Assembly: GCA_948099385.1 (NCBI GenBank)
Contig: CANUEZ040000067.1
Span: 21,470,501 to 21,534,500, forward strand
Source of the DNA: Fasciola hepatica
Lineage: Eukaryota; Platyhelminthes; Trematoda; Plagiorchiida; Fasciolidae
Length of the DNA: 64,000 nucleotides
Reading direction: 5' to 3'
Part shown: positions 1 to 64,000 of the stretch, piece by piece
Layout: every line of letters begins with the position of its first letter
Numbering within the stretch: position 1 is the stretch's first letter
Program-made: the position numbers and the translations under genes
Notes under the pieces: generated by a model
What the model was told of the DNA's origin: nothing
What the model saw: only the letters and a program-made list of their open reading frames with translations
The model's database searches: none

Positions 1-19
1 ATCATCAGCAGTGCACATC
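1..19 (-). ncRNA. Truncated hammerhead at the left window edge
   Basis: The window opens inside the first ribozyme. Only the core CUGAUGA (2-8) and the 5' strand of stem I (9-19) are present. Stem II, stem III and the cleavage site lie outside the window. This shows that the array continues to the left. Confidence 0.85.
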
Positions 20-24
20 CACCG

Positions 25-96
25 AGCCCCCACGGGGACTCGAACACGGGGTGAACGATTGTGAATCGAACACCTTAACCACAAGGCTATCCGGGT
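25..96 (-). other. First tRNA-like segment in the window
   Basis: This has the same layout as the reference copy, but box B is mutated at its first base (TGTTCGAGTCC on the minus strand). Box A is intact at the consensus of the array. Confidence 0.8.
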
Positions 97-363
97 TGGC
101 TCTCAACGGTTTGCTGAACATCTACACTACATGATATAGCACCCTTCCGTCACTGGCTTTTGAACGGTAACAACCCGCTTCCCACACAGCGATCGACTCC
201 TATGATGGATGACTTCTCTGTAGGGGCCTAAGTACAACGAACGCATTCCGTTATGAACAACCTACAGAGCTTGGTTATTATTTGCAATTGAGTAGTAGGA
301 GATTAGATTTGTATATAATATGATTCATCATGCAGCTTGAACGCTCAACTCACCATTGAAAAC

Positions 364-420
364 GATGGAAGCACTGTACAGCTGTTTCATCCTTGTTGGA
401 AATCATAAGCACTGCACATT
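364..420 (-). pseudogene. Heavily decayed hammerhead copy
   Basis: This copy has several hits at once. The core reads CUUAUGA (G5 to U) at 403-409. The stem I 5' strand is changed from GCACUG to GCAGUG, and the flank from CATCC to CATTT. A stem II base is also changed. It is the most damaged ribozyme I noticed and is predicted to be inactive. Confidence 0.75.
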
Positions 421-3400
421 TACCGAGCCCCCACGGTGACTCGAACCCGGGGTGAACGATTGTGAATCGAACACCTTAACCACAAGGCTATCCGGGTTGG
501 CTCTCAACGGTTTGCTGAACATCTACACTACATGATATAGCACCCTTCCGTCACTGGCTTTTGAACGGTAACAACCCGCTTCCCACACAGCGATCGACTC
601 CTATGATGGATGACTTCTCTGTAGGGGCCTAAGTACAACGAACGCATTCCGTTATGAACAACCTACAGAGCTTGGTTATTATTTGCAATTGAGTAGTAGG
701 AGATTAGATTTGTATATAATATGATTCATCATGCAGCTTGAACGCTCAACTCACCATTGAAAACGATGGATGCACTGTACAGCTGTTTCATCCTTGTTGT
801 CAATCATCAGCAGAGCACATCCACCGAGCCCCCACGGGGACTCGAACCCGGGGTGAACGATTGTGAATCGAACACCTTAACCACAAGGCTATCCGGGTTG
901 GCTCTCAACGGTTTGCTGAACATCTACACTACATGATATAACACCCTTCCGTCACTGGCTTTTGAACGGTAACAACCCGCTTCCCACACAGCGATCGACT
1001 CCTATGATGGATGACTTCTCTGTAGGGGCCTAAGTACAACGAAGGCATTCCGTTATGAACAACCTACAGAGCTTGGTTATTATTTGCAATTGAGTAGTAG
1101 GAGATTAGATTTGTATATTATATGATTCATCATGCAGCTTGAACGCTTAACTCACCATTGAAACGATGGAAGCACTGTACAGCTGTTTCATCCTTGTTGG
1201 GAATCATGAGCAGTGCACATCCACCGAGCCCCCACGGGGACTCGAACCCGGGGTGAACGATTGTGAATCGAACACCTTAACCACAAGGCTATCCGGGTTG
1301 GCTCTCAACGGTTTGCTGAACATCTACACTACATGATATAGCACCCTTCCGTCACTGGCTTTTGAACGGTAACAACCCGCTTCCCACACAGCGATCGACT
1401 CCTATGATGGATGACTTCTCTGTAGGGGCCTAAGTACAACGAAGGCATTCCGTTATGAACAACCTACAGAGCTTGGTTATTATTTGCAATTGAGTAGTAG
1501 GAGATTAGATTTGTATATAATATGATTCATCATGCAGCTTGAACGCTCAACTCACCATTGAAAACGATGGAAGCACTGTACAGCTGTTTCATCCTTGTTG
1601 GGAATCATCAGCAGTGCACATCCACCGAGCCCCCACGGGGACTCGAACCCGGGGTGAACGATTGTGAATCGAACACCTTAACCACAAGGCTATCCGGGTT
1701 GGCTCTCAACGGTTTGCTGAACATCTACACTACATGATATAGCACCCTTCCGTCACTGGCTTTTGAACGGTAACAACCCGCTTCCCACACAGCGATCGAC
1801 TCCTATGATGGATGACTTCTCTGTAGGGGCCTAAGTACAACGAAGGCATTCCGTTATGAACAACCTACAGAGCTTGGTTATTATTTGCAATTGAGTAGTA
1901 GGAGATTAGATTTGTATATAATATGATTCATCATGCAGCTTGAACGCTCAACTCACCATTGAAACGATGGAAGCACTGTACAGCTGTTTCATCCTTGTTG
2001 GGAATCATCAGCAGTGCACATCCACCGAGCCCCCACGGGGACTCGAACCCGGGGTGAACGATTGTGAATCGAACACCTTAACCACAAGGCTATCCGGGTT
2101 GGCTCTCAACGGTTTGCTGAACATCTACACTACATGATATAGCACCCTTCCGTCACTGGCTTTTGAACGGTAACAACCCGCTTCCCACACAGCGATCGAC
2201 TCCTATGATGGATGACTTCTCTGTAGGGGCCTAAGTACAACGAAGGCATTCCGTTATGAACAACCTACAGAGCTTGGTTATTATTTGCAATTGAGTAGTA
2301 GGAGATTAGATTTGTATATAATATGATTCATCATGCAGCTTGAACGCTCAACTCACCATTGAAAACGATGGAAGCACTGTACAGCTGTTTCATCCTTGTT
2401 GGGAATCATCAGCAGTGCACATCCACCGAGCCCCCACGGGGACTCGAACCCGGGGTGAACGATTGTGAATCGAACACCTTAACCACAAGGCTATCCGGGT
2501 TGGCTCTCAACGGTTTGCTGAACATCTACACTACATGATATAGCACCCTTCCGTCACTGGCTTTTGAACGGTAACAACCCGCTTCCCACACAGCGATCGA
2601 CTCCTATGATGGATGACTTCTCTGTAGGGGCCTAAGTACAACGAAGGCATTCCGTTATGAACAACCTACAGAGCTTGGTTATTATTTGCAATTGAGTAGT
2701 AGGAGATTAGATTTGTATATAATATGATTCATCATGCAGCTTGAACGCTCAACTCACCATTGAAACGATGGAAGCACTGTACAGCTGTTTCATCCTTGTT
2801 GGGAATCATCAGCAGTGCACATCCACCGAGCCCCCACGGGGACTCGAACCCGGGGTGAACGATTGTGAATCGAACACCTTAACCACAAGGCTATCCGGGT
2901 TGGCTCTCAACGGTTTGCTGAACATCTACACTACATGATATAGCACCCTTCCGTCACTGGCTTTTGAACGGTAACAACCCGCTTCCCACACAGCGATCGA
3001 CTCCTATGATGGATGACTTCTCTGTAGGGGCCTAAGTACAACGAAGGCATTCCGTTATGAACAACCTACAGAGCTTGGTTATTATTTGCAATTGAGTAGT
3101 AGGAGATTAGATTTGTATATAATATGATTCATCATGCAGCTTGAACGCTCAACTCACCATTGAAACGATGGAAGCACTGTACAGCTGTTTCATCCTTGTT
3201 GGGAATCATCAGCAGTGCACATCCACCGAGCCCTCACGGGGACTCGAACCCGGGGTGAACGATTGTGAATCGAACACCTTAACCACAAGGCTATCCGGGT
3301 TGGCTCTCAACGGTTTGCTGAACATCTACACTACATGATATAACACCCTTCCGTCACTGGCTTTTGAACGGTAACAACCCGCTTCCCACACAGCGATCGA

Positions 3401-5023
3401 CTCCTATGATGGATGACTTCTCTGTAGGGGCCTAAGTACAACGAAGGCATTCCGTTATGAAAAACCTACAGAGCTTGGTTATTATTTGCAATTGAGTAGT
3501 AGGAGATTAGATTTGTATATAATATGATTCATCATGCAGCTTGAACGCTCAACTCACCATTGAAAACGATGGAAGCACTGTACAGCTGTTACATCCTTGT
3601 TGGGAATCATCAGCAGTGCACATCCACCGAGCCCCCACGGGGACTCGAACCCGGGGTGAACGATTGTGAATCGAACACCTTAACCACAAGGCTATCCGGG
3701 TTGGCTCTCAACGGTTTGCTGAACATCTACACTACATGATATAGCACCCTGCCGTCACTGGCTTTTGAACGGTAACAACCCGCTTCCCACACAGCGATCC
3801 ACTCCTATGATGGATGACTTCTCTGTAGGGGCTTAAGTAAAACGAAGGCATTCCGTTATGAACAACCTACAGAGCTTGGTTATTATTTGCAATTGAGTAG
3901 TAGGAGATTAGATTTGTATATAATATGATTCATCATGCAGCTTGAACGCTCAACTCACCATTGAAAACGATGGAAGCACTGTACAGCTGTTTCATCCTTG
4001 TTGGGAATCATCAGCAGTGCACATCCACCGAGCCCCCACGGGGACTCGAACCCGGGGTGAACGATTGTGAATCGAACACCTTAACCACAAGGCTATCCGG
4101 GTTGGCTCTCAACGGTTTGCTGAACATATACATTACATGATATAGCACCCTTCCGTCACTGGCTTTTGAACGGTAACAACCCGCTTCCCACACAGCGATC
4201 GACTCCTATGATGGATGACTTCTCTGTAGGGGCCTAAGTACAACGAAGGCATTCCGTTATCAATAACCTACAGAGCTTGATTTTTATTTGCAATTGAGTA
4301 GTAGGAGATTAGATTTGTATATAATATGATTCATCATGCAGCTTGAACGCTCAACTCACCATTGAAAACGATGGAAGCACTGTACAGCTGTTTCATCCTT
4401 GTTGGGAATCATGAGCAGTGCACATCCACCGAGCCCCCACGGTGACTCGAACCCGGGGTGAACGATTGTGAATCGAACACCTTAACCACAAGGCTATCCG
4501 GGTTGGCTCTCAACGGTTTGCTGAACATCTACACTACATGATATAGCACCCTTCCGTCACTGGCTTTTGAACGGTAACAACCCACTACCCACACAGCGAT
4601 CGACTCCTATGATGGATGACTTCTCTGTAGGGGCCTAAGTACAACGAAGGCATTCCGTTATGAACAACCTACAGAGCTTGGTTATTATTTGCAATTGAGT
4701 AGTAGGAGATTAGATTTGTATATAATATGATTCATCATGCAGCTTGAACGCTCAACTCACCATTGAAAACGATGGAAGCACTGTACAGCTGTTTCATCCT
4801 TGTTGGGAATCATCAGCAGTGCACATCCACCGAGCCCTCACGGGGACTCGAACACGGGGTGAACGATTGTGAATCGAACACCTTAACCACAAGGCTATCC
4901 GGGTTGGCTCTCAACGGTTTGCTGAACATCTTCACTACATGATATAGCACCATTCCGTCACTGGCTTTTGAACGGTAACAACCCGCTTCCCACACAGCGA
5001 TCGACTCCTATGATGGATGACTT

Positions 5024-5077
5024 CTCTGTAGGGGCCTAAGTACAACGAAGGCATTCCGTTATGAACAACCTACAGAG
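5024..5077. repeat. 9-bp perfect inverted repeat with 36-nt spacer
   Basis: CTCTGTAGG at 5024-5032 and CCTACAGAG at 5069-5077 are exact reverse complements and would close a hairpin in a transcript of either strand. The arms are intact in most monomers. In a subset the right arm reads AAACAGAG (near 17502, 17902, 19908, 20308, 24720, 26725, 29531, 34745, 36349, 36750, 37552 and 57600), which breaks three outer pairs. I know of no named element with this shape. Confidence 0.6.
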
Positions 5078-5119
5078 CTTGGTTATTATTTGCAATTGAG
5101 TAGTAGGAGATTAGATTTG

Positions 5120-5139
5120 TATATAATATGATTCATCAT
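5120..5139. other. TATA-like AT-rich patch with a small palindrome
   Basis: TATATAATAT at 5120-5129 overlaps ATGAT-TC-ATCAT at 5128-5139, a 5-bp inverted repeat with a 2-nt centre. The patch is almost invariant; exceptions lie near 1117, 32795 and 62867. It sits downstream of the Pol III unit on the minus strand and could only act as a TATA element for plus-strand transcription, for which there is no other support. Confidence 0.35.
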
Positions 5140-5166
5140 GCAGCTTGAACGCTCAACTCACCATTG

Positions 5167-5170
5167 AAAA
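5167..5170 (-). terminator. Putative Pol III T4 terminator next to the hammerhead
   Basis: AAAA on the plus strand is TTTT on the minus strand. It begins 1 nt after the last paired base of hammerhead stem I and is the only minus-strand T4 run in the consensus unit. A Pol III transcript starting at the tRNA-like head would end here at about 140 nt, just long enough to contain the whole ribozyme. T4 is a minimal and leaky terminator in many animals, so read-through is plausible. About 29 copies have lost the run. Confidence 0.55.
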
Positions 5171-5171
5171 C

Positions 5172-5228
5172 GATGGAAGCACTGTACAGCTGTTTCATCC
5201 TTGTTGGGAATCATCAGCAGTGCACATC
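5172..5228 (-). ncRNA. Type I hammerhead ribozyme (representative copy)
   Basis: On the minus strand the parts fall in hammerhead order. Stem I 5' strand is GAUG, a 1-nt bulge, then GCACUG. The core CUGAUGA is at 5211-5217. Stem II is UUCC and GGAU around loop CAACAA (5197-5210). The core GAA is at 5194-5196. Stem III is ACA-GC-UGU (5186-5193), 3 bp with a 2-nt loop. Position 17 is A at 5185, and the stem I 3' strand is CAGUGC, bulge UUC, then CAUC. Stem I pairs perfectly in its 6-bp and 4-bp parts, and the bulges lie where stem I to loop II tertiary contacts form in natural hammerheads. Predicted self-cleavage is between 5185 and 5184. One oddity is U-U at positions 10.1/11.1, where G-C is usual, which may lower activity. 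Chance occurrence of this whole arrangement is very unlikely; activity is inferred, not shown. Confidence 0.9.
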
Positions 5229-5244
5229 CACCGAGCCCCCACGG

Positions 5245-5255
5245 GGACTCGAACC
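5245..5255 (-). promoter_or_regulatory. Pol III box B (B-block)
   Basis: The minus strand reads GGTTCGAGTCC, an exact match to the B-block consensus GGTTCGANTCC and the strongest promoter signal in the unit. It lies about 33 nt downstream of box A, a normal tRNA-gene spacing. A minority of copies change its first G: to T near 38, 4847, 14080, 33727 and 39740, and to A near 43350, 59789, 60189 and 62597. Confidence 0.85.
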
Positions 5256-5287
5256 CGGGGTGAACGATTGTGAATCGAACACCTTAA

Positions 5288-5298
5288 CCACAAGGCTA
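5288..5298 (-). promoter_or_regulatory. Pol III box A (A-block)
   Basis: The minus strand reads TAGCCTTGTGG against the eukaryotic A-block TRGYNNARNNG. Every fixed position matches except the central A, which is T here. The same T appears in essentially all copies I read, so it belongs to the founder unit rather than being scattered decay. With the exact B-block downstream it forms a type 2 internal promoter; strength is unknown. Confidence 0.7.
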
Positions 5299-8200
5299 TC
5301 CGGGTTGGCTCTCAACGGTTTGCTGAACATCTACACTACATGATATAGCACCCTTCCGTCACTGGCTTTTGAACGGTAACAACCCGCTTCCCACACAGCG
5401 ATCGACTCCTATGATGGATGACTTCTCTGTAGGGGCCTAAGTACAACGAAGGCATTCCGTTATGAACAACCTACAGAGCTTGGTTATTATTTGCAATTGA
5501 GTAGTAGGAGATTAGATTTGTATATAATATGATTCATCATGCAGCTTGAACGCTCAACTCACCATTGAAAACGATGGAAGCACTGTACAGCTGTTTCATC
5601 CTTGTTGGGAATCATCAGCAGTGCACATCCACCGAGCCCCGACGGGGACTCGAACCCGGGGTGAACGATTGTGAATCGAACACCTTAACCACAAGGCTAT
5701 CCGGGTTGGCTCTCAACGGTTTGCTGAACATCTACACTACATGATATAACACCCTTCCGTCACTGGCTTTTGAACGGTAACAACCCGCTTCCCACACAGC
5801 GATCGACTCCTATGATGGATGACTTCTCTGTAGGGGCCTAAGTACAACGAAGGCATTCCGTTATGAACAACCTACAGAGCTTGGTTATTATTTGCAATTG
5901 AGTAGTAGGAGATTAGATTTGTATATAATATGATTCATCATGCAGCTTGAACGCTCAACTCACCATTGAAAACGATGGAAGCACTGTACAGCTGTTTCAT
6001 CCTTGTTGGGAATCATCAGCAGTGCACATCCACCGAGCCCCCACGGGGACTCGAACCCGGGGTGAACGATTGTGAATCGAACACCTTAACCACGAGGCTA
6101 TCCGGGTTGGCTCTCAACGGTTTGCTGAACATCTACACTACATGATATAGCACCCTTCCGTCACTGGCTTTTGAACGGTAACAACCCGCTTCCCACACAG
6201 CGATCGACTCCTATGATGGATGACTTCTCTGTAGGGGCCTAAGTACAACGAAGGCATTCCGTTATGAACAACCTACAGAGCTTGGTTATTATTTGCAATT
6301 GAGTAGTAGGAGATTAGATTTGTATATAATATGATTCATCATGCAGCTTGAACGCTCAACTCACCATTGAAAACGATGGAAGCACTGTACAGCTGTTTCA
6401 TCCTTGTTGGGAATCATCAGCAGTGCACATCCACCGAGCCCCCACGGGGACTCGAACCCGGGGTGAACGATTGTGAATCGAACACCTTAACCACAAGGCT
6501 ATCCGGGTTGGCTCTCAACGGTTTGCTGAACATCTATACTACATGATATAACACCCTTCCGTCACTGGCTTTTGAACGGTAACAACCCGCTTCCCACACA
6601 GCGATCGACTCCTATGATGGATGACTTCTCTGTAGGGGCCTAAGTACAACGAAGGCATTCCGTTATGAACAACCTACAGAGCTTGGTTATTATTTGCAAT
6701 TGAGTAGTAGGAGATTAGATTTGTATATAATATGATTCATCATGCAGCTTGAACGCTCAACTCACCATTGAAAACGATGGAAGCACTGTACAGCTGTTTC
6801 ATCCTTGTTGAGAATCATCAGCAGAGCACATCCACCGAGCCCCCACGGGGACTCGAACCCGGGGTGAACGATTGTGAATCGAACACCTTAACCACAAGGC
6901 TATCCGGGTTGGCTCTCAACGGTTTGCTGAACATCTACACTACATGATATAACACCCTTCCGTCACTGGCTTTTGAACGGTAACAACCCGCTTCCCACAC
7001 AGCGATCGACTCCTATGATGGATGACTTCTCTGTAGGGGCCTAAGTACAACGAAGGCATTCCGTTATGAACAACCTACAGAGCTTGGTTATTATTTGCAA
7101 TTGAGTAGTAGGAGATTAGATTTGTATATAATATGATTCATCATGCAGCTTGAACGCTCAACTCACCATTGAAAACGATGGAAGCACTGTACAGCTGTTT
7201 CATCCTTGTTGGGAATCATCAGCAGTGCACATCCACCGAGCCCCCACGGGGACTCGAACCCGGGGTGAACGATTGTGAATCGAACACCTTAACCACAAGG
7301 CTATCCGGGTTGGCTCTCAACGGTTTGCTGAACATCTACACTACATGATATAGCACCCTTCCGTCACTGGCTTTTGAACGGTAACAACCCGCTTCCCACA
7401 CAGCGATCGACTCCTATGATGGATGACTTCTCTGTAGGGGCCTAAGTACAACGAAGGCATTCCGTTATGAACAACCTACAGAGCTTGGTTATTATTTGCA
7501 ATTGAGTAGTAGGAGATTAGATTTGTATATAATATGATTCATCATGCAGCTTGAACGCTCAACTCACCATTGAAAACGATGGAAGCACTGTACAGCTGTT
7601 TCATCCTTGTTGGGAATCATCAGCAGTGCACATCCACCGAGCCCCAACGGGGACTCGAACCCGGGGTGAACGATTGTGAATCGAACACCTTAACCACAAG
7701 GCTATCCGGGTTGGCTCTCAACGGTTTGCTGAACATCTACACTACATGATATAGCACCCTTCCGTCACTGGCTTTTGAACGGTAACAACCCGCTTCCCAC
7801 ACAGCGATCGACTCCTATGATGGATGACTTCTCTGTAGGAGCCAAAGTACAACGAAGGCATTCCGTTATGAACAACCTACAGAGCTTGGTTATTATTTGC
7901 AATTGAGTAGTAGGAGATTAGATTTGTATATAATATGATTCATCATGCAGCTTGAACGCTCAACTCACCATTGAAAACGATGGAAGCACTGTACAGCTGT
8001 TTCATCCTTGTTGGGAATCATCAGCAGTGCACATCCACCGAGCCCCCACGGGGACTCGAACCCGGGGTGAACGATTGTGAATCGAACACCTTAACCACAA
8101 GGCTATTCGGGTTGGCTCTCAACGGTTTGCTGAACATCTACACTACATGATATAGCACCCTTCCGTCACTGGCTTTTGAACGGTAACAACCCGCTTCCCA

Positions 8201-8780
8201 CACAGCGATCGACTCCTATGATGGATGACTTCTCTGTAGGGGCCTAAGTACAACGAAGGCATTCCGTTATGAACAACCTACAGAGCTTGGTTATTATTTG
8301 CAATTGAGTAGTAGGAGATTAGATTTGTATATAATATGATTCATCATGCAGCTTGAACGCTCAACTCACCATTGAAAACGATGGAAGCACTGTACAGCTG
8401 TTTCATCCTTGTTGGGAATCATCAGCAGTGCACATCCACCGAGCCCCCACGGGGACTCGAACCCGGGGTGAACGATTGTGAATCGAACACCTTAACCACA
8501 AGGCTATCCGGGTTGGCTCTCAACGGTTTGCTGAACATCTACACTACATGATATAGCACCCTTCCGTCACTGGCTTTTGAACGGTAACAACCCGCTTCCC
8601 ACACAGCGATCGACTCCTATGATGGATGACTTCTCTGTAGGGGCCTAAGTACAACGAAGGCATTTCGTTATGAACAACCTACAGAGCTTGGTTATTATTT
8701 GCAATTGAGTAGTAGGAGATTAGATTTGTATATAATATGATTCATCATGCAGCTTGAACGCTCAACTCACCATTGAAAAC

Positions 8781-8837
8781 GATGGAAGCACTGTCTAGCT
8801 GTTTCATCCTTGTTGGGAATCATCGGCAGTGCACATC
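8781..8837 (-). pseudogene. Hammerhead copy with stem III and core lesions
   Basis: The stem III and cleavage region reads GTCTAGCTG on the plus strand instead of GTACAGCTG, which destroys the ACA/UGU stem and the UA at the cleavage site. The core at 8820-8826 is CCGAUGA (U4 to C). The same pair of lesions recurs exactly 8 units on, near 12000, so the two copies share descent. Confidence 0.7.
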
Positions 8838-11800
8838 CACCGAGCCCCCACGGGGACTCGAACCCGGGGTGAACGATTGTGAATCGAACACCTTAACCAC
8901 AAGGCTATCCGGGTTGGCTCTCAACGGTTTGCTGAACATCTACACTACATGATATAGCACCCTTCCGTCACTGGCTTTTGAACGGTAACAACCCGCTTCC
9001 CACACAGCGATCGACTCCTATGATGGATGAGTTCCCTGTAGGGGCCTAAGTACAACGAAGGCATTCCGTTATGAACAACCTACAGAGCTTGGTTATTATT
9101 TGCAATTGAGTAGTAGGAGATTAGATTTGTATATAATATGATTCATCATGCAGCTTGAACGCTCAACTCACCATTGAAAACGATGGATGCACTGTACAGC
9201 TGTTTCATCCTTGTTGGGAATCATCAGCAGTGCACATCCACCGAGCCCCCACGGGGACTCGAACCCGGGGTGAACGATTGTGAATCGAACACCTTAACCA
9301 CAAGGCTATCCGGGTTGGCTCTCAACGGTTTGCTGAACATCTACACTACATGATATAGCACCCTTCCGTCACTGGCTTTTGAACGGTAACAACCCACTAC
9401 CCACACAGCGATCGACTCCTATGATGGATGACTTCTCTGTAGGGGCCTAAGTACAACGAAGGCATTCCGTTATGAACAACCTACAGAGCTTGGTTATTAT
9501 TTGCAATTGAGTAGTAGGAGATTAGATCTGTATATAATATGATTCATCATGCAGCTTGAACGCCCAACTCACCATTGAAAGCGATGGAAGCACTGTACAG
9601 CTGTTTCATCCTTGTTGGGAATCATCGGCAGTGCACATCCACCGAGCCCCCACGGGGACTCGAACCCCGGGGTGAACGATTGTGAATCGAACACCTTAAC
9701 CACAAGGCTATCCGGGTTGGCTCTCAACGGTTTGCTGAACATCTACACTACATGATATAGCACCCTTCCGTCACTGGCTTTTGAACGGTAACAACCCGCT
9801 TCCACACAGCGATCCACTCCTATGATGGATGACTTCTCTGTAGGGGCCTAAGTACAACAGAGACATTCCGTTATGAACAACCTACAGAGCTTGGTTATTA
9901 TTTGCAATTGAGTAGTAGGAGATTAGATTTGTATATAATATGATTCATCATGCAGCTTGAACGCTCAACTCACCATTGAAAACGATGGAAGCACTGTACA
10001 GCTGTTTCATCCTTGTTGGGAATCATCAGCAGAGCACATCCACCGAGCCCCCACGGGGACTCGAACCCGGGGTGAACGATTGTGAATCGAACACCTTAAC
10101 CACAAGGCTATCCGGGTTGGCTCTCAACGGTTTGCTGAACATCTACACTACATGATATAACACCCTTCCGTCACTGGCTTTTGAACGGTAACAACCCGCT
10201 TCCCACACAGCGATCGACTCCTATGATGGATGACTTCTCTGTAGGGGCCTAAGTACAACGAAGGCATTCCGTTATGAACAACCTACAGAGCTTGGTTATT
10301 ATTTACAATTGAGTAGTAGGAGATTAGATTTGTATATAATATGATTCATCATGCAGCTTGAACGCTCAACTCACCATTGAAAACGATGGAAGCACTGTAC
10401 AGCTGTTTCATCCTTGTTGGGAATCATCAGCAGTGCACATCCACCGAGCCCCCACGGGGACTCGAACCCGGGGTGAACGATTGTGAATCGAACACCTTAA
10501 CCACAAGGCTATCCGGGTTGGCTCTCAACGGTTTGCTGAACATCTACACTACATGATATAGCACCATTCCGTCACTGGCTTTTGAACGGTAACAACCCAC
10601 TACCCACACAGCGATCGACTCCTATGATGGATGACTTCTCTGTAGGGGCCTAAGTACAACGAAGGCATTCCGTTATGAACAACCTACAGAGCTTGGTTAT
10701 TATTTGCAATTGAGTAGTAGGAGATTAGATTTGTATATAATATGATTCATCATGCAGCTTGAACGCTCAACTCACCATTGAAAACGATGGAAGCATTGTA
10801 CAGCTGTTTCATCCTTGTTGGGAATCATCAGCAGTGCACATCCACCGAGCCCCCACGGGGACTCGAACCCGGGGTGAACGATTGTGAATCGAACACCTTA
10901 ACCACAAGGCTATCCGGGTTGGCTCTCAACGGTTTGCTGAACATCTATACTACATGATATAACACCCTTCCGTCACTGGCTTTTGAACGGTAACAACCCG
11001 CTTCCCACACAGCGATCGACTCCTGTGATGGATGACTTCTCTGTAGGGGCCTAAGTACAACGAAGGCATTCCGTTATGAACAACCTACAGAGCTTGGTTA
11101 TTATTTGCAATTGAGTAGTAGGAGATTAGATTTGTATATAATATGATTCATCATGCAGCTTGAACGCTCAACTCACCATTGAAAACGATGGAAGCACTGT
11201 ACAGCTGTTTCATCCTTGTTGGGAATCATCAGCAGTGCACATCCACCGAGCCCCCACGGGGACTCGAACCCGGGGTGAACGATTGTGAATCGAACACCTT
11301 AACCACAAGGCTATCCGGGTTGGCTCTCAACGGTTTGCTGAACATCTACACTACATGATATAACACCCTTCCGTCACTGGCTTTTGAACGGTAACAACCC
11401 GCTTCCCACACAGCGATCGACTCCTATGATGGATGACTTCTCTGTAGGGGCCTAAGTACAACGAAGGCATTCCGTTATGAACAACCTACAGAGCTTGGTT
11501 ATTATTTGCAATTGAGTAGTAGGAGATTAGATTTGTATATAATATGATTCATCATGCAGCTTGAACGCTCAACTCACCATTGAAAACGATGGAAGCACTG
11601 TACAGCTGTTTCATCCTTGTTGGGAATCATCAGCAGTGCATATCCACCGAGCCCCCACGGGGACTCGAACCCGGGGTGAACGATTGTGAATCGAACACCT
11701 TAACCACAAGGCTATCCGGGTTGGCTCTCAACGGTTTGCTGAACATCTACACTACATGATATAACACCCTTCCGTCACTGGCTTTTGAACGGTAACAACC

Positions 11801-43900: not shown

Positions 43901-44501
43901 CGACTCCTATGATGGATGACTTCTCTGTAGGGGCCTAAGTACAACGAAGGCATTCCGTTATGAACAACCTACAGAGCTTGCTTATTATTTGCAATTGAGT
44001 AGTAGGAGATTAGATTTGTATATAATATGATTCATCATGCAGCTTGAACGCTCAACTCACCATTGAAAACGATGGAAGCACTGTACAGCTGTTTCATCCT
44101 TGTTGGGAATCATCAGCAGTGCACGTCCACCGAGCCCCCACGGGGACTCGAACCCGGGGTGAACGATTGTGAATCGAACACCTTAACCACAAGGCTATCC
44201 GGGTTGGCTCTCAACGGTTTGCTGAACATCCACACTACATGATATAACACCCTTCCGTCACTGGCTTTTGAACGGTAACAACCCGCTTCCCACACAGCGA
44301 TCGACTCCTATGATGGATGACTTCTCTGTAGGGGCCTAAGTACAACGAAGGCATTCCGTTATGAACAACCTACAGAGCTTGGTTATTATTTGCAATTGAG
44401 TAGTAGGAGATTAGGTTTGTATATAATATGATTCATCATGCAGCTTGAACGCTCAACTCACCATTGAAAGCGATGGAAGCACTGTACAGCTGTTTCATCC
44501 T
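37966..44501 (-). repeat. Array segment 3: mosaic monomers
   Basis: About 16 monomers, mostly close to consensus, with intact ribozyme cores and T4 runs. Exceptions include GAAAGCG near 39256 and 44467 (T4 lost), a one-base deletion in the tRNA-like acceptor arm near 40590, and GGCCGAAGT near 39122 and 42731. No other element is present. Confidence 0.88.
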
Positions 44502-50049: not shown

Positions 50050-50142
50050 TCATGCAGCTTGAACGCTCAACTCACCATTGAAAACGATGGAAGCACTGTA
50101 CAGCTGTTTCATAATTGTTGGGAATCATGAGCAGTGCACATC
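50050..50142 (-). pseudogene. Hammerhead copy with broken core and stem II
   Basis: The core reads CUCAUGA (G5 to C) at 50125-50131. The stem II 3' strand is also altered, with plus-strand ATCC changed to ATAA, so the stem cannot form. It carries a T4 run and a normal tRNA-like head, so it would be transcribed but not cleaved. Confidence 0.7.
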
Positions 50143-51000
50143 CACCGAGCCCCCACGGGGACTCGAACCCGGGGTGAACGATTGTGAATCGAACACCGTA
50201 ACCACAAGGCTATCCGGGTTGGCTCTCAACGGTTTGCTGAACATCTACACTACATGATATAGCACCCTTCCGTCACTGGCTTTTGAACGGTAACAACCCG
50301 CTTCCCACACAGCGATCGACTCCTATGATGGATGACTTCTCTGTAGGGGCCTAAGTACAACGAAGGCATTCCGTTATGAACAACCTACAGAGCTTGGTTA
50401 TTATTTGCAATTGAGTAGTAGGAGATTAGATTTGTATATAATATGATTCATCATGCAGCTTGAACGCTCAACTCACCATTGAAAGCGATGGAAGCACTGT
50501 ACAGCTGTTTCATCCTTGTTGGGAATCATCAGCAGTGCACATCCACCGAGCCCCCACGGAGACTCGAACCCGGGGTGAACGATTGTGAATCGAACACCTT
50601 AACCACAAGGCTATCCGGGTTGGCTCTCAACGGTTTGCTGAACATCTACACTACATGATATAGCACCCTTCCGTCACTGGCTTTTGAACGGTAACAACCC
50701 GCTTCCCACACAGCGATCGACTCCTATGATGGATGACTTCTCTGTAGGGGCCTAAGTACAACGAAGGCATTCCGTTATGAACAACCTACAGAGCTTGGTT
50801 ATTATTTGCAATTGAGTAGTAGGAGATTAGATTTGTATATAATATGATTCATCATGCAGCTTGAACGCTCAACTCACCATTGAAAACGATGGAAGCACTG
50901 TACAGCTGTTTCATCCTTGTTGGGAATCATCAGCAGTGCACATCCACCGAGCCCCCACGGGGACTCGAACCCGGGGTGAACGATTGTGAATCGAACACCG

Positions 51001-53405: not shown

Positions 53406-55810
53406 TAACCACAAGGCTATCCGGGTTGGCTCTCAACGGTTTGCTGAACATCTACACTACATGATATAACACCCTTCCGTCACTGGCTTTTGAACGGTAA
53501 CAACCCGCTTCCCACACAGCGATCGACTCCTATGATGGATGACTTCTCTGTAGGGGCCTAAGTACAACGAAGGCATTCCGTTATGAACAACCTACAGAGC
53601 TTGGTTATTATTTGCAATTGAGTAGTAGGAGATTAGATTTGTATATAATATGATTCATCATGCAGCTTGAACGCTCAACTCACCATTGAAAACGATGGAA
53701 GCACTGTACAGCTGTTTCATCCTTGTTGGGAATCATGAGCAGTGCACATCCACCGAGCCCCCACGGGGACTCGAACCCGGGGTGAACGATTGTGAATCGA
53801 ACACCTTAACCACAAGGCTATCCGGGTTGGCTCTCAACGGTTTGCTGAACATCTACACTACATGATATAGCACCCTTCCGTCACTGGCTTTTGAACGGTA
53901 ACAACCCGCTTCCCACACAGCGATCGACTCCTATGATGGATGACTTCTCTGTAGGGGCCTAAGTACAACGAAGGCATTCCGTTATGAACAACCTACAGAG
54001 CTTGGTTATTATTTGCAATTGAGTAGTAGGAGATTAGATTTGTATATAATATGATTCATCATGCAGCTTGAACGCTCAACTCACCATTGAAAACGATGGA
54101 AGCACTGTACAGCTATTTCATCCTTGTTGGGAATCATCAGCAGTGCACATCCACCGAGCCCCCACGGGGACTCGAACCCGGGGTGAACGATTGTGAATCG
54201 AACACCTTAACCACAAGGCTATCCGGGTTGGCTCTCAACGGTTTGCTGAACATCTACACTACATGATATAGCACCCTTCCGTCACTGGCTTTTGAACGGT
54301 AACAACACGCTTCCCACACAGCGATCGACTCCTATGATGGATGACTTCTCTGTAGGGGCCGAAGTACAACGAAGGCATTCCGTTATGAACAACCTACAGA
54401 GCTTGGTTATTATTTGCAATTGAGTAGTAGGAGATTAGATTTGTATATAATATGATTCATCATGCAGCTTGAACGCTCAACTCACCATTGAAAGCGATGG
54501 AAGCCCTGTACAGCTGTTTCATCCTTGTTGGGAATCATCAGCAGTGCACATCCACCGAGCCCCCACGGAGACTCGAACCCGGGGTGAACGATTGTGAATC
54601 GAACACCTTAACCACAAGGCTATCGGGTTGGCTCTCAACGGTTTGCTGAACATCTACACTACATGATATAACACCCTTCCGTCACTGGCTTTTGAACGGT
54701 AACAACCCGCTTCCCACACAGCGATCGACTCCTATGATGGATGACTTCTCTGTAGGGGCCTAAGTACAACGAAGGCATTCCGTTATGAACAACCTACAGA
54801 GCTTGGTTATTATTTGCAATTGAGTAGTAGGAGATTAGATTTGTATATAATATGATTCATCATGCAGCTTGAACGCTCAACTCACCATTGAAAACGATGG
54901 AAGCACTGTACAGCTGTTTCATCCTTGTTGGGAATCATGAGCAGTGCACATCCACCGAGCCCCCACGGGGACTCGAACCCGGGGTGAACGATTGTGAATC
55001 GAACACCTTAACCACAAGGCTATCCGGGTTGGCTCTCAACGGTTTGCTGAACATCTACACTACATGATATAACACCCTTCCGTCACTGGCTTTTGAACGG
55101 TAACAACCCGCTTCCCACACAGCGATCGACTCCTATGATGGATGACTTCTCTGTAGGGGCCTAAGTACAACGAAGGCATTCCGTTATGAACAACCTACAG
55201 AGCTTGGTTTTTATTTGCAATTGAGTAGTAGGAGATTAGATTTGTATATAATATGATTCATCATGCAGCTTGAACGCTCAACTCACCATTGAAAGCGATG
55301 GAAGCACTGTACAGCTGTTTCATCCTTGTTGGGAATCATGAGCAGTGCACATCCACCGAGCCCCCACGGGGACTCGAACCCGGGGTGAACGATTGTGAAT
55401 CGAACACCTTAACCACAAGGCTATCCGGGTTGGCTCTCAACGGTTTGCTGAACATCTACACTACATGATATAACACCCTTCCGTCACTGGCTTTTGAACG
55501 GTAACAACCCGCTTCCCACACAGCGATCGACTACTATGATGGATGACTTCTCTGTAGGGGCCTAAGTACAACGAAGGCATTCCGTTATGAACAACCTACA
55601 GAGCTTGGTTATTATTTGCAATTGAGTAGTAGGAGATTAGATTTGTATATAATATGATTCATCATGCAGCTTGAACGCTCAACTCACCATTGAAAACGAT
55701 GGAAGCACTGTACAGCTGTTTCATCCTTGTTGGGAATCATCAGCAGTGCACATCCACCGAGCCCCCACGGGGGCTCGAACCCGGGGTGAACGATTGTGAA
55801 TCGAACACCT
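53406..55810 (-). repeat. Older higher-order 6-mer, copy 2 (2405 bp)
   Basis: This repeats the preceding block but with about nine differences that I noticed (for example near 54091, 54729, 54896, 54937, 55189, 55372, 55536 and 55931). It is thus clearly older than the 16965-21776 duplication or has been partly overwritten by conversion. Both copies carry the same deletion in the tRNA-like acceptor arm. Confidence 0.72.
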
Positions 55811-58800
55811 TAACCACAAGGCTATCCGGGTTGGCTCTCAACGGTTTGCTGAACATCTACACTACATGATATAACACCCTTCCGTCACTGGCTTTTGAAC
55901 GGTAACAACCCGCTTCCCACACAGCGATCCACTCCTATGATGGATGACTTCTCTGTAGGGGCCTAAGTACAACGAAGGCATTCCGTTATGAACAACTTAC
56001 AGAGCTTGGTTTTTATTTGCAATTGAGTAGTAGGAGATTAGATTTGTATATAATATGATTCATCATGCAGCTTGAACGCTCAACTCACCATTGAAAACGA
56101 TGGAAGCACTGTACAGCTGTTTCATCCTTGTTGGGAATCATCAGCAGTGCACATCCACCGAGCCCCCACGGGGACTCGAACCCGGGGTGAACGATTGTGA
56201 ATCGAACACCTTAACCACAAGGCTATCCGGGTTGGCTCTCAACGGTTTGCTGAACATCTACACTACATGATATAACACCCTTCCGTCACTGGCTTTTGAA
56301 CGGTAACAACCCGCTTCCCACACAGCGATCGACTCCTATGATGGATGACGTCTCTGTAGGGGCCGAAGTACAACGAAGGCATTCCGTTATGAACAACCTA
56401 CAGAGCTTGGTTATTATTTGCAATTGAGTAGTAGGAGATTAGATTTGTATATAATATGATTCATCATGCAGCTTGAACGCTCAACTCACCATTGAAAACG
56501 ATGGAAGCACTGTACAGCTGTTTCATCCTTGTTGGGAATCATCAGCAGTGCACATCCACCGAGCCCCCACGGGGGCTCGAACCCGGGGTGAACGATTGTG
56601 AATCGAACACCTTAACCACAAGGCTATCCGGGTTGGCTCTCAACGGTTTGCTGAACATCTACACTACATGATATAACACCCTTCCGTCACTGGCTTTTGA
56701 ACGGTAACAACCCGCTTCCCACACAGCGATCGACTCCTATGATGGATGACTTCTCTGTAGGGGCCTAAGTACAACGAAGGCATTCCGTTATGAACAACTT
56801 ACAGAGCTTGGTTATTATTTGCAATTGAGTAGTAGGAGATTAGATTTGTATATAATATGATTCATCATGCAGCTTGAACGCTCAACTCACCATTGAAAAC
56901 GATGGAAGCACTGTACAGCTGTTTCATCCTTGTTGGGAATCATCAGCAGTGCACATCCACCGAGCCCCCACGGGGACTCGAACCCGGGGTGAACGATTGT
57001 GAATCGAACACCTTAACCACAAGGCTATCCGGGTTGGCTCTCAACGGTTTGCTGAACATCTACACTACATGATATAGCACCCTTCCGTCACTGGCTTTTG
57101 AACGGTAACAACCCGCTTCCCACACAGCGATCGACTCCTATGATGGATGACGTCTCTGTAGGGGCCTAAGTACAACGAAGGCATTCCGTTATGAACAAAC
57201 TACAGAGCTTGGTTATTATTTGCAATTGAGTAGTAGGAAATTAGATTTGTATATAATATGATTCATCATGCAGCTTGAACGCTCAACTCACCATTGAAAA
57301 CGATGGAAGCACTGTACAGCTGTTTCATCCTTGTTGGGAATCATCAGCAGTGCACATCCACCGAGCCCCCACGGGGACTCGAACCCGGGGTGAACGATTG
57401 TGAATCGAACACCTTAACCACAAGGCTATCCGGGTTGGCTCTCAACGGTTTGCTGAACATCTACACTACATGATATAGCACCCTTCCGTCACTGGCTTTT
57501 GAACGGTAACAACCCGCTTCCCACACAGCGATCGACTACTATGATGGATGACTTCTCTGTAGGGGCCTAAGTACAACGAAGGCATTCCGCCATGAACAAC
57601 AAACAGAGCTTGGTTATTATTTGCAATTGAGTAGTAGGAGATTAGATTTGTATATAATATGATTCATCATGCAGCTTGAACGCTCAACTCACCATTGAAA
57701 ACGATGGAAGCACTGTACAGCTGTTTCATCCTTGTTGGGAATCATCAGCAGTGCACATCCACCGAGCCCCCACGGGGACTCGAACCCGGGGTGAACGATT
57801 GTGAATCGAACACCTTAACCACAAGGCTATCCGGGTTGGCTCTCAACGGTTTGCTGAACATCTACACTACATGATATAGCACCCTTCCGTCACTGGCTTT
57901 TGAACGGTAACAACCCGCTTCCCACACAGCGATCGACTCCTATGATGGATGACTTCTCTGTAGGGGCCTAAGTACAACGAAGGCATTCCGTTATGAACAA
58001 CCTACGGAGCTTGGTTATTATTTGCAATTGAGTAGTAGGAGATTAGATTTGTATATAATATGATTCATCATGCAGCTTGAACGCTCAACTCACCATTGAA
58101 AACGATGGAAGCACTGTACAGCTATTTCATCCTTGTTGGGAATCATCAGCAGTGCACATCCGCCGAGCCCCCACGGGGACTCGAACCCGGGGTGAACGAT
58201 TGTGAATCGAACACCTTAACCACAAGGCTATCCGGGTTGGCTCTCAACGGTTTGCTGAACATCTACACTACATGATATAGCACCCTTCCGTCACTGGCTT
58301 TTGAACGGTAACAACCCGCTTCCCACACAGCGATCGACTCCTATGATGGATGACTTCTCTGTAGGGGCCTAAGTACAACGAAGGCATTCCGTTATGAACA
58401 ACCTACAGAGCTTGGTTATTATTTGCAATTGAGTAGTAGAAGATTAGATTTGTATATAATATGATTCATCATGCAGCTTGAACGCTCAACTCACCATTGA
58501 AAACGATTGAAGCACTGTACAGCTGTTTCATCCTTGTTGGGAATCATCAGCAGTGCACATCCACCGAGCCCCCACGGGGACTCGAACCCGGGGTGAACGA
58601 TTGTGAATCGAACACCTTAACCACAAGGCTATCCGGGTTGGCTCTCAACGGTTTGCTGAACATCTACACTACATGATATAGCACCCTTCCGTCACTGGCT
58701 TTTGAACGGTAACAACCCGCTTCCCACACAGCGATCGACTCCTATGATGGATGACTTCTCTGTAGGGGCCTAAGTACAACGAAGGCAATCCGTTATAAAC

Positions 58801-61800
58801 ATCATACAGAGCTAGGTTATTATTTGCAATTGAGTAGTAGGAGATTAGATTTGTATATAATATGATTCGTCATGCAGCTTGAACGCTCAACTCACCATTG
58901 AAAACGATGGAAGCACTGTACAGCTGTTTCATCCTTGTTGGGAATCATCAGCAGTGCACATCCACCGAGCCCCCACGGGGACTCGAACCCGGGGTGAACG
59001 ATTGTGAATCGAACAACTTAACCACAAGGCTATCCGGGTTGGCTCTCAACGGTTTGCTGAACATCTACACTACATGATATAGCACCCTTCGGTCACTGGC
59101 TTTTGAACGGTAACAACCCGCTTCCCACACAGCGATCGACTCCTATGATGGATGACTTCTCTGTAGGGGCCTAAGTACAACGAAGGCATTCCGTTATGAA
59201 CAACTTACAGAGCTTGGTTATTATTTGCAATTGAGTAGTAGGAGATTAGATTTGTATATAATATGATTCATCATGCAGCTTGAACGCCCAACTCACCATT
59301 GAAAACGATGGAAGCACTGTACAGCTGTTTCATCCTTGTTGGGAATCATGAGCATTGCACATCCACCGAGCCCCCACGGGGACTCGAACCCGGGGTGAAC
59401 GATTGTGAATCGAACACCTTAACCACAAGGCTATCCGGGTTGGCTCTCAACGGTTCGCTGAACATCTACACTACATGATATAGCACCCTTCCGTCACTGG
59501 CTTTTGAACGGTAACAACCCGCTTCCCACACAGCGATCGACTCCTATGATGGATGACTTCTCTGTAGGGGCCTAAGTACAACGAAGGCATTCCGTTATGA
59601 ACAACCTACAGAGCTTGGTTATTATGTGCAATTGAGTAGTAGGAGATTAGATTTGTATATAATATGATTCATCATGCAGCTTGAACGCTCAACTCACCAT
59701 TGAAAACGATGGAAGCACTGTACAGCTGTTTCATCCTTGTTGGGAATCATGAGCAGTGCACATCCACCGAGCCACCACGGGGACTCGAACTCGGGGTGAA
59801 CGATTGTGAATCGAACACCTTAACCACAAAGCTATCCGGGTTGGCTCTCAACGGTTTGCTGAACATCTACACTACATGATATAGCACCCTTCGGTCACTG
59901 GCTTTTGAACGGTAACAACCCGCTTCCCACACAGCGATCGACTCCTATGATGGATGACTTCTCTATAGGGGCCTAAGTACAACGAAGGCATTCCGTTATG
60001 AACAACCTACAGAGCTTGGTTATTATTTGCAATTGAGTAGTAGGAGATTAGATTTGTATATAATATGATTCGTCATGCAGCTTGAACGCTCAACTCACCA
60101 TTGAAAACGATGGAAGCACTGTACAGCTGTTTCATCCTTGTTGGGAATCATCAGCAGTGCACATCCACCGAGCCCCCACGGGGACTCGAACTCGGGGTGA
60201 ACGATTGTGAATCGAACACCTTAACCACGAGGCTATCCGGGTTGGCTCTCAACGGTTTGCTGAACATCTACACTACATGATATAGCACCCTTCCGTCACT
60301 GGCTTTTGAACGGTAACAACCCGCTTCCCACACAGCGATCGACTCCTATGATGGATGACTTCTCTGTAGGGGCCTAAGTACAACGAAGGCATTCCGTTAT
60401 GAACAACCTACAGAGCTTGGTTATTATTTGCAATTGAGTAGTAGGAGATTAGAATTGTATATAATATGATTCATCATGCAGCTTGAACGCCCAACTCACC
60501 ATTGAAAACGATGGAAGCACTGTACAGCTGTTTCATCCTTGTTGGGAATCATCAGCAGTGCACATCCACCGAGCCCCCACGGGGACTCGAACCCGGGGTG
60601 AACGATTGTGAATCGAACACCTTAACCACAAGGCTATCCGGGTTGGCTCTCAACGGTTTGCTGAACATCTACACTACATGATATAGCACCCTTCCGTCAC
60701 TGGCTTTTGAACGGTAACAACCCGCTTCCCACACAGCGATCGACTCCTATGATGGATGACTTCTCTGTAGGGGCCTAAGTACAACGAAGGCATTCCGTTA
60801 TGAACAACCTACAGAGCTTGGTTATTATTTGCAATTGAGTAGTAGGAGATTAGATTTGTATATAATATGATTCATCATGCAGCTTGAACGCTCAACTCAC
60901 CATTGAAAGCGATGGAAGCACTGTACAGCTGTTTCATCCTTGTTGGGAATCATCAGCAGTGCACATCCACCGAGCCCCCACGGGGACTCGAACCCGGGGT
61001 GAACGATTGTGAATCGAACACCTTAACCACAAGGCTATCCGGGTTGGCTCTCAACGGGTTGCTGAACATCCACACTACATGATATAACACCCTTCCGTCA
61101 CTGGCTTTTGAACGGTAACAACCCGCTTCCCACACAGCGATCGACTCCTATGATGGATGACTTCTCTGTAGGGGCCTAAGTACAACGAAGGCATTCCGTT
61201 ATGAACAACCTTCAGAGCTTGGTTATTATTTGCAATTGAGTAGTAGGAGATTAGATTTGTATATAATATGATTCATCATGCAGCTTGAACGCTCAACTCA
61301 CCATTGAAAACGATGGAAGCACTGTACAGCTGTTTCAACCTTGTTGGGAATCATGAGCAGTGCACATCCACCGAGCCCCCACGGGGACTCGAACCCGGGG
61401 TGAACGATTGTGAATCGAACACCTTAACCACAAGGCTATCCGGGTTGGCTCTCAACGGTTTGCTGAACATCTACACTACGTGATATAGCACCCTTCCGTC
61501 ACTGGCTTTTTAACGGTAACAACCCGCTTCCCACGCAGCGATCGACTCCTATGATGGATGACTTCTCTGGAGGGGCCTAAGTACAACGAAGGCATTCCGT
61601 TATGAACAACCTACAGAGCTTGGTTATTATTTGCAATTGAGTAGTAGGAGATTAGATTTGTATATAATATGATTCATCATGCAGCTTGAACGCTCAACTC
61701 ACCATTGAAAGCGATGGAAGCACTGTACAGCTGTTTCATCCTTGTTGGGAATCATCAGCAGTGCACATCCACCGAGCCCCCACGGGGACTCGAACCCGGG

Positions 61801-63717
61801 GTGAACGATTGTGAATCGAACATCTTAACCACAAGGCTATCCGGGTTGGCTCTCAACGGTTTGCTGAACATCTACACTACATGATATAGCACCCTTCCGT
61901 CACTGGCTTTTGAACGGTAACAACCCGCTTCCCACACAGCGATCGACTCCTATGATGGATGACTTCTCTGTAGGGGCCTAAGTACAACGAAGGCATTCCG
62001 TTATGAACAACTTACAGAGCTTGGTTATTATTTGCAATTGAGTAGTAGGAGATTAGATTTGTATATAATATGATTCATCATGCAGCTTGAACGCTCAACT
62101 CACCATTGAAAACGATGGAAGCACTGTACAGCTGTTTCATCCTTGTTGGGAATCATGAGCAGTGCACATCCACCGAGCCCCCACGGGGACTCGAACCCGG
62201 GGTGAACGATTGTGAATCGAACACCTTAACCACAAGGCTATCCGGGTTGGCTCTCAACGGTTTGCTGAACATCTACACTACATGATATAGCACCCTTCCG
62301 TCACTGGCTTTTGAACGGTAACAACCCGCTTCCCACACAGCGATCGACTCCTATGATGGATGACTTCTCTGTAGGGGCCTAAGTACAACGAAGGCATTCC
62401 GTTATGAACAACCTACAGAGCTTGGTTATTATTTGCAATTGAGTAGTAGGAGATTAGATTTGTATATAATCTGATTCATCATGCAGCTTGAACGCCCAAC
62501 TCACCATTGAAAACGATGGAAGCACTGTACAGCTGTTTCATCCTTGTTGGGAATCATCGGCAGTGCACATCCACCGAGCCCCCACGGGTACTCGAACTCG
62601 GGGTGAACGATTGTGAATCGAACACCTTAACCACAAGGCTATCCGGGTTGGCTCTCAACGGTTTGCTGAACATCTACACTACATGATATAGCACCCTTCC
62701 GTCACTGGCTTTTGAACGGTAACAACCCGCTTCCCACACAGCGATCGACTCGTATGATGTATGACTTCTCTGTAGGGGCCTAAGTACAACGAAGGCATTC
62801 CGTTATGAACAACCTACAGAGCTTGGTTATTATGTGCAATTGAGTAGTAGGAGATTAGATTTGTATAACATATGATTCATCATGCAGCTTGAACGCTCAA
62901 CTCACCATTGAAAACGATGGAAGCACTGTACAGCTGTTTCATCCTTGTTGGGAATCATCAGCAGTGCACATCCACCGAGCCTCAACGGGGACTCGAACCC
63001 GGGGTGAACGATTGTGAATCGAACACCTTAACCACAAGGCTATCCGGGTTGGCTCTCAACGGTTTGCTGAACATCTACACTACATGATATAGCACCCTTC
63101 CGTCACTGGCTTTTGAACGGTAACAACCCGCTTCCCACACAGCGATCGACTACTATGATGGATGACTTCTCTGTAGGGGCCTAAGTACAACGAAGGCATT
63201 CCGTTATGAACAACCTACAGAGCTTGGTTATTATTTGCAATTGAGTAGTAGGAGATTAGATTTGTATATAATATGATTCATCATGCAGCTTGAACGCTCA
63301 ACTCACCATTGAAAGCGATGGAAGCACTGTACAGCTGTTTCATCCTTGTTGGGAATCATCAGCAGTGCACATCCACCGAGCCCCCACGGGGACTCGAACC
63401 CGGGGTGAACGATTGTGAATCGAACACCTTAACCACAAGGCTATCCGGGTTGGCTCTCAACGGTTTGCTGAACATCTACACTACATGATATAACACCCTT
63501 CCGTCACTGGCTTTTGAACGGTAACAACCCGCTTCCCACACAGCGATCGACTCCTATGATGGATGACTTCTCTGTAGGGGCCTAAGTACAACGAAGGCAT
63601 TCCGTTATGAACAACCTACAGAGCTTGGTTATTATTTGCAATTGAGTAGTAGGAGATTAGATTTGTATATAATATGATTCATCATGCAGCTTGAACGCTC
63701 AACTCACCATTGAAAAC

Positions 63718-63774
63718 GATGGAAGCACTGTACAGCTGTTTCATCCTTGTTGGGAATCATCAGCAGTGCACATC
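63718..63774 (-). ncRNA. Last complete hammerhead in the window
   Basis: All core residues, stem I, the ACAGCUGU stem III and the cleavage-site A are as in the reference copy. A T4 run is present at 63713-63716. Confidence 0.88.
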
Positions 63775-63779
63775 CACCG

Positions 63780-63851
63780 AGCCCCCACGGGGACTCGAAC
63801 CCGGGGTGAACGATTGTGAATCGAACATCTTAACCACAAGGCTATCCGGGT
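63780..63851 (-). other. Last tRNA-like segment in the window
   Basis: Box A and box B are both as in the array consensus. One substitution (CATCTTAACC, near 63827) falls in the D-arm to anticodon-arm junction, outside both boxes. Confidence 0.8.
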
Positions 63852-64000
63852 TGGCTCTCAACGGTTTGCTGAACATCTACACTACATGATATAGCACCCT
63901 TCCGTCACTGGCTTTTGAACGGTAACAACCCGCTTCCCACACAGCGATCGACTACTATGATGGATGACTTCTCTGTAGGGGCCTAAGTACAACGAAGGCA

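Follow-up and report, generated by a model that had tools for sequence, protein, structure and literature searches.

We analysed a 64,000-nucleotide stretch of the Fasciola hepatica genome (hereafter the window; contig CANUEZ040000067.1, C67:21470501–21534500, in an assembly of 1.5 Gb and 656 contigs), which consists of a satellite whose 401-bp unit carries, on the minus strand, a tRNA-like head and a type I hammerhead ribozyme motif. A mobile family spread through the whole genome includes this array as one of its sites, and the behaviour of the element can be read from its dispersed copies, not from the array. These copies bear an insertion footprint that ties a tRNA-headed hammerhead repeat to the two-ended priming of Penelope-type elements, and this footprint is the stronger result of the analysis.

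The window is a section of a megabase-scale array

Tandem Repeats Finder (TRF) described the window as a single array spanning positions 1–64000, with a period of 401, 159.6 copies and 98% matches, and BLAST returned 159 full units, every one of them on the minus strand. Units lie on average 0.9% from their own consensus; neighbouring units show 6.4 differences and random pairs 6.7, with a mean of 6.3 between neighbours when edits are counted. A higher-order repeat was sought in the window and none was found, lags of 1 to 11 units each giving 6.0–6.5 differences. Mean difference from the consensus was 1.2% in the ribozyme stretch, 0.9% in the remaining unit and 0.5% in the tRNA-like head, and a search across the window units for extra conservation of, or selection on, the ribozyme gave no sign of either.

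On C67, the window belongs to a longer array that extends, with interruptions, over about 1.3 Mb. Among the matches listed, the unit occurs from 21.095 to 22.250 Mb, always on the minus strand, and it was present in 7 of 20 probes placed on the contig outside the window (21.25 to 22.40 Mb), again in the minus orientation in all seven; the 13 probes without the unit included those at 21.085 Mb and below, at 22.05 Mb and from 22.50 Mb onward. TTAGGG repeats terminate the contig at 22.864 Mb (locus L108, C67:22864000–22864404), which places the array about 0.4–1.8 Mb from a chromosome end; if the chromosome is acrocentric, the array may lie close to its centromere. The megabase-scale array looks like a later, DNA-level amplification of one repeat of the dispersed type described below.

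Layout of the 401-bp unit

The features of an example unit are listed in Table 1, for which unit position p converts to window position 5308 − p. The unit opens with the kind of head that characterises tRNA-derived short interspersed nuclear elements (SINEs), tRNA-like and with two conserved strings that we take to be the A and B boxes of an RNA polymerase III promoter. Across the whole window, the Rfam tRNA model gave six matches above its cut-off, the top one at 33.7 bits, and ARAGORN called a tRNA-Val (CAC) at two places within positions 4000–10000. The TTTT behind the hammerhead is retained in 130 of the 159 units, and a polymerase III transcript could comprise the head and the ribozyme and then stop there. 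In the predicted fold of a circularised unit, the roughly 260 nt downstream of this run form long stems. The stretch between the inner and outer start sites, which are defined by the dispersed insertions, corresponds to what is called the tail in Penelope elements.

Table 1. Features of the window and of one example unit, in window coordinates
Feature	Position	Strand	Remarks
Tandem array	1..64000	minus	159 full 401-bp units and two partial ones, in one orientation; TRF, BLAST
Example unit	4907..5307	minus	Unit 1–401 = window 5307 down to 4907
tRNA-like head	5234..5305	minus	26.8 bits with the Rfam tRNA model, below its cut-off of 29
A box string	5288–5298	minus	Exact in 154/159 units
B box string	5245–5255	minus	Exact in 138/159 units
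Type I hammerhead motif	5171..5232	minus	Core intact in 128/159 units
CUGAUGA	5211–5217	minus	Hammerhead core
GAAA	5193–5196	minus	Hammerhead core
Predicted ribozyme cut	5185/5184 (unit 123/124)	minus	From motif layout
T4 run, the sole one in the unit	5167..5170	minus	Immediately 3' of the hammerhead; possible polymerase III stop
Putative inner reverse-transcription start site	5109..5124 (unit 184–199)	minus	From the end of one arm in dispersed insertions
Putative outer reverse-transcription start site	5083..5095 (unit 213–225)	minus	From the end of the other arm

A type I hammerhead motif with probably weak or conditional activity

All 159 units have the order stem I – CUGAUGA – stem II – GAAA – stem III – UA – stem I, with a helix III of 2 bp. 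The nine core bases, A15.1–U16.1 and H17 are all intact in 128 of the 159 units, as they are in the consensus, and 109 units pass when every stem pair is counted in addition to the core. A hammerhead descriptor gave one match in the consensus versus none in 20,000 dinucleotide shuffles. Judged by its sequence, with a CUGANGA and GAAA core, type I stem order, A15.1–U16.1 and H17, the motif is real and of type I. These counts bear out much of a first-pass annotation of the window, which had described a 64-kb array of 401-bp units with a type I hammerhead on the minus strand of every monomer, a minimal stem III, about 128 complete catalytic cores and a cut between 5185 and 5184, the site that the motif layout also predicts.

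The same annotation had held that its reading would fall if no covariance model matched the minus strand above threshold and a dimer transcript failed to cleave in magnesium. The first half of this is what we obtained: over the whole window, no hammerhead family in Rfam reached its gathering score, and the best hammerhead match within positions 4400–6400 was HH9 (RF02275), at 28.9 bits versus the required 52 (E = 1.3e-4, four units). The first pair of helix II is U.U in 159 of 159 units. For a lone copy, the active structure lies at −16.0 kcal/mol and the minimum at −21.0 kcal/mol, so that a misfold is predicted. In it, as in the fold predicted for the circle, the CUG of the core pairs with CAGC. 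The U.U pair in helix II, the short helix III, the predicted misfold and the score below cut-off speak against a strong ribozyme.

When two separate 62-nt copies are folded together, the joint minimum-energy structure is a double hammerhead; within the full 802-nt dimer, this cross-copy pairing had a predicted probability of 0, and we dropped it as a candidate structure. A canonical stem II, searched for elsewhere by an exact pattern with a G-C base and a 6-nt loop, had only five matches genome-wide, so that by this pattern there is no large canonical sister family; one of the five, at C159:1830635–1830660, has the family's stem II loop on a helix II that starts with a canonical G-C. Self-cutting into 401-nt pieces, as the first-pass annotation proposed, is plausible, with an activity that would probably be low or would require pairing or protein. 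As a monomer, 22% of the axolotl HHR_Amex2 ribozyme was cleaved within an hour, and the dimer was cleaved far more efficiently (PMC7229834); the Anolis Penelope hammerhead cleaved solely upon addition of protein (PMC11167929).

Many dispersed copies are inserted as two inverted arms

Searching the genome with the core pattern, allowing at most 2 mismatches, gave 36,703 matches, and a control gave 0; U.U was found in 96 of 100 core places among the matches listed. Dispersed, and present as tandem units within the 150–450 bp range that each hold one type I hammerhead, the family has the genomic features of metazoan retrozymes without long terminal repeats (non-LTR retrozymes). It looks old, because there are relatives that have diverged by about 28% and whose ribozyme cores have decayed (L044 2621–3026, L049 1302–1437 and L057 1111–1198); with their cores in this state, such copies were unusable as a test of ribozyme conservation.

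A first sample comprised 40 distinct dispersed insertions, namely 20 from 30 extracted core loci, a further eight (L066 and L069–L075), and 12 at which a single core was shown (L076–L087). Two arms were found in 28 of the 40 (12/20, 8/8 and 8/12 in the three subsamples), and the arm order was minus-then-plus in every one of the 28. Genome-wide, a gapped pattern with a spacing of 260–290 nt matched 32 loci in the minus-then-plus order and none in the reverse order. Three of these 32 loci (C163:4576269, 4595995 and 4659153) are two-armed with the same matched start and lie within 83 kb, and are probably a single insertion that was duplicated with its surroundings.

The ends of the arms fall at two places in the unit. 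Positions 180–228 contain 56 of 66 arm ends, mainly near 184–199 and 213–225, defining an inner and an outer site about 30 nt apart. Among 26 two-armed insertions that were fully read, 19 had both ends within 180–228, and 17 of those combined one inner with one outer end, one having two outer and one two inner ends (p ~ 4e-4 under equal chances, for classes that were defined after these same ends had been viewed). Since the classes were post hoc, a second sample was examined with the classes unchanged, made up of 20 of the 32 spaced loci; one locus already in the first sample and two of the three C163 copies were excluded. Seven of these ran off the sequence stretch, two had one end outside, one had two outer ends and ten had one of each, so that both classes were represented in 10 of 11 scorable insertions (p = 0.006).

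Where the two arms meet, an overlap of 1 bp or more was seen for 22 of 28 insertions of the first sample and for 18 of 20 of the second. Target duplications were sought at 36 insertions; with three in AT microsatellites set aside, direct repeats of 8–14 nt flank 18 of the remaining 33, and at random places in the same loci such repeats occur in 0.5–6%. The duplications resemble those of Penelope elements in the same genome (12–15 nt), and, as in Penelope-type insertions, the arms are inverted with their ends facing outward, and just one of the two bears a tail. An inverted duplication at the DNA level was considered and rejected as their source, as it leaves unexplained the inner and outer ends, the target duplications and the orientation of 32 versus 0.

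Penelope-like elements of the same genome share this arrangement

The genome contains at least 90 matches to GIY-YIG at E ≤0.001 (150 of 302 candidates scored), and, among the matches listed, neighbours within 5 kb are arranged minus-then-plus in ten cases and in the reverse order in none. A Penelope-like open reading frame (ORF) of 821 amino acids combines RVT_1 with GIY-YIG. Seven of nine two-armed Penelope loci have one inner and one outer end, 62–68 nt apart, and all seven have duplications of 12–15 nt; at the other two, one end is inner and the second lies elsewhere. Because the outer end falls within the beginning of the ORF that follows, the template of these elements, too, extended beyond one unit.

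One Penelope-like element, L068 (C107:1526500–1534000), has an ORF that carries RVT_1 and GIY-YIG, a stretch duplicated 2752 bp apart, and inverted arms that are 100% complementary across 1458 and 1240 nt; it is a candidate product of two-ended copying from a single circular or multimeric RNA. Its 3' untranslated region includes a stretch ending GACCGAAACGTCGAC, which we take to resemble a minimal Penelope hammerhead in its second half; in place of the CTGANGA expected ahead of this, the element has CTTGAAAAAG.

What the arms record of the template

The step between unit positions 123 and 124, at which the ribozyme would cut, is intact within 56 of 66 arms, and the 5' end of an arm comes within 5 nt of the cut site in only one of 66, truncation points on the 5' side being highly variable. 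A ribozyme-cut linear monomer was therefore rejected as the usual template, because its first base would be unit position 124, and starts near 190 and 220 would yield arms of about 67–100 nt. Sixteen of the 66 arms are longer than 401 nt, the longest reaching 4.4 kb, and some hold about 11 units.

The longer arms are strikingly uniform at some loci. L066 contains 8 minus and 11 plus cores, and 13 of its 17 full units are identical (nine in the plus arm and four in the minus arm), the other four each being one base off. Eight substitutions and one 1-nt deletion separate this common version from the consensus of the window, and the mean number of edits between the units of L066 is 0.41 within arms and 0.50 between them, versus 6.3 for neighbours in the window. 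All four full units of L036 are identical. The units of L069 are about 3 edits apart, with 8 of 11 variable sites being singletons. A circle is the best fit to these arm data; exchange between the arms could also homogenise them.

Separately from the satellite, we observed many mitochondrial contigs in the assembly (C429, C468, C471, C552 and others), several with COX1 every 14.2–14.9 kb, that is, concatenated copies with a length-variable region. Translated with table 5, the mitochondrial COX1 shares 94% identity with Fasciola gigantica and 84% with Fasciolopsis, as befits a fluke of the Fasciola type.

Discussion

We consider it likely that the unit is a non-autonomous, tRNA-headed retrozyme inserted by a Penelope-type reverse transcriptase from circular RNA, and that the array in the window was produced by later amplification at the DNA level. 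Being too short for a reverse transcriptase of its own, the 401-bp unit would use one in trans. Along this route, polymerase III or read-through transcription would produce multimeric RNA of the unit strand, the hammerheads would cleave the multimers, and a host ligase would circularise the monomers into 401-nt circles; transcription, cleavage, circularisation and the acting enzyme are the parts that we infer. The Penelope enzyme, probably as a dimer, would then nick the two target strands at positions offset by about 12 nt, and the 3' end exposed on each would prime synthesis at one of the two start sites, which are separated by about 30 nt on a single RNA. Each strand would be copied around the circle for a variable number of rounds, and the new ends would be joined mid-insertion, mostly via a few matching bases, leaving arms in the minus-then-plus order with a short flanking duplication. 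Observed directly were the arrangement of the arms and the pair of sites at which they end, the flanking duplications, the joint overlaps, the uninterrupted passage through the cut site, the near-identical units in the arms of L066 and the Penelope elements of the same layout.

A fuller version of this account, which we offer with slightly more doubt than confidence, has a dimeric Penelope reverse transcriptase reading one ribozyme-made circle from two adjacent starts, with both target ends priming and many rounds copied, and thereby laying down palindromic seeds from which satellites like that of the window grow. On this version, tRNA-headed retrozymes would be the SINEs of Penelope elements, and the ribozyme would work in multimers and be misfolded in the single circle, so that the template stays closed.

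Several observations weigh against insertion by a Penelope-type enzyme from a circle. Eight loci of the first sample (L066 and L069–L075) were chosen as looking paired or tandem, the end classes were set post hoc on that sample, 10 of 66 arm ends lie elsewhere than at the two sites, and a duplication was absent in 15 of the 36 insertions tested. BLAST of the unit against the Penelope loci L067 and L068 gave chance-level matches only, the tail of the Penelope family examined is 62–68 nt long versus about 30 nt in the 401-bp element, and start sites in the Anolis system are alike on both strands (PMC11167929). For the form of the template, uncut multimeric RNA crosses the cut site just as a circle does, and circularity is thus not forced; one of the single-base variants in L066 occurs in one unit of each arm; 3 of 11 variable sites in L069 are shared between units, one of them split 6:5 across both arms; and recent loci lie 2–7 edits from one another, so that a uniform linear multimer could likewise yield uniform arms.

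These last points bear on an explanation that retains the element and its two-ended, Penelope-type insertion and replaces the circle by long uncut multimeric RNA from tandem arrays. It draws on the Anolis system, in which uncut RNA was judged the main substrate and ribozyme-dead RNA was inserted equally well (PMC11167929), on a ribozyme that looks weak by Rfam score and predicted folds, and on the variation common to several units of L069. We regard it as unlikely, since a transcript of the window array should bring about 6 edits between neighbours, and the four units of L036 are identical while the 17 of L066 are 0.4–0.5 edits apart with one version in both arms; short uniform arrays acting as sources would weaken this argument from uniformity. 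The hammerhead might instead be a fossil, the satellite being inert and structural, perhaps centromere-near, and its ribozyme without present function. The array itself agrees with this, as the ribozyme has no extra conservation there, neighbours diverge from each other about as much as randomly paired units do and U.U is universal, and the old diverged copies have broken cores. We nevertheless find a fossil rather doubtful, because it suits the array and not the family: the recent insertions L036 and L066 carry the same core, and, as their near-identical units do so, the U.U version has spread recently.

Insertion of an ordinary tRNA-derived SINE by a long interspersed nuclear element (LINE), with inverted pairs formed by twin priming and arrays by unequal crossing-over, would account for the tRNA-like head with its A-box and B-box strings and for arms truncated at widely varied points on the 5' side. 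LINE twin priming, too, can leave microhomology where the inversion is joined, and the overlaps at the joints would be compatible with it. In twin priming, the inverted arm begins inside the element. Here, the outer ends of the arms fall at two adjacent sites, with one end at each site in 17 of 19 insertions of the first sample and 10 of 11 of the second; 28 of 40 insertions are two-ended; and Penelope elements of the same genome have the same pattern at seven of nine loci. No A-tail was seen by eye at the subset of ends inspected, a comparison that did not extend to the 3' ends of the genome's LINEs. Taken together, a LINE-driven origin appears highly improbable, and insertion by a Penelope-type enzyme remains our preferred reading.

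The earlier proposal that Penelope elements move animal retrozymes was built on hammerheads in common, tandem copies and occurrence in the same genomes; that of a circular template was built on tandem copies together with the abundance of circles (PMC7229834, PMC7761336). The footprint described here is evidence of another kind than these proposals from shared traits, and we did not find such a footprint test on retrozymes in the literature searched, which took in few subscription journals and no bioRxiv preprints. The test can be carried to other genomes, where one would look for outward inverted arms, an inner and an outer start, short duplications and arms of more than one unit. Our results suggest a route by which copying from RNA lays the seed of a satellite and amplification at the DNA level then enlarges it.

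Comparison with known systems

Within the trematodes, the schistosome SMalpha (W36.2) is likewise a SINE-like repeat of a few hundred base pairs with a type I hammerhead; it is 335 bp long versus 401 bp here, the two having been compared by description and not by sequence (PMC8490949). The hammerhead of Schistosoma mansoni is very fast in vitro (PMC6155905), whereas the fluke motif has a U.U pair and a short helix III. These two traits recur in the axolotl HHR_Amex2, with U.U at the base of helix II and a helix III of two pairs, and the metazoan non-LTR retrozymes of coral, mussel and axolotl share with the fluke unit the type I hammerhead, the tandem repeats of 150–450 bp and the presence of Penelope elements in the same genomes; a circular RNA template and a Penelope helper were proposed there (PMC7229834). 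The fluke unit differs in having a tRNA-like head; the insertion footprint is described for it here, and expression and cleavage were demonstrated for those retrozymes.

Penelope-like elements differ from the 401-bp unit in the longer tail of the family examined in this genome. They resemble it in their inverted arms, tandem copies and short target duplications (PMC11167929, PMC3846280), and a tail of about 30 nt on one inverted arm is known from Adineta, where it measures 31 bp and is optional (PMC3846280). In vitro, the Anolis Penelope enzyme cuts and extends both target strands, and synthesis on its RNA begins at two neighbouring internal positions that match the genomic tail (PMC11167929), an arrangement of starts that parallels the inner and outer ends of the fluke insertions.

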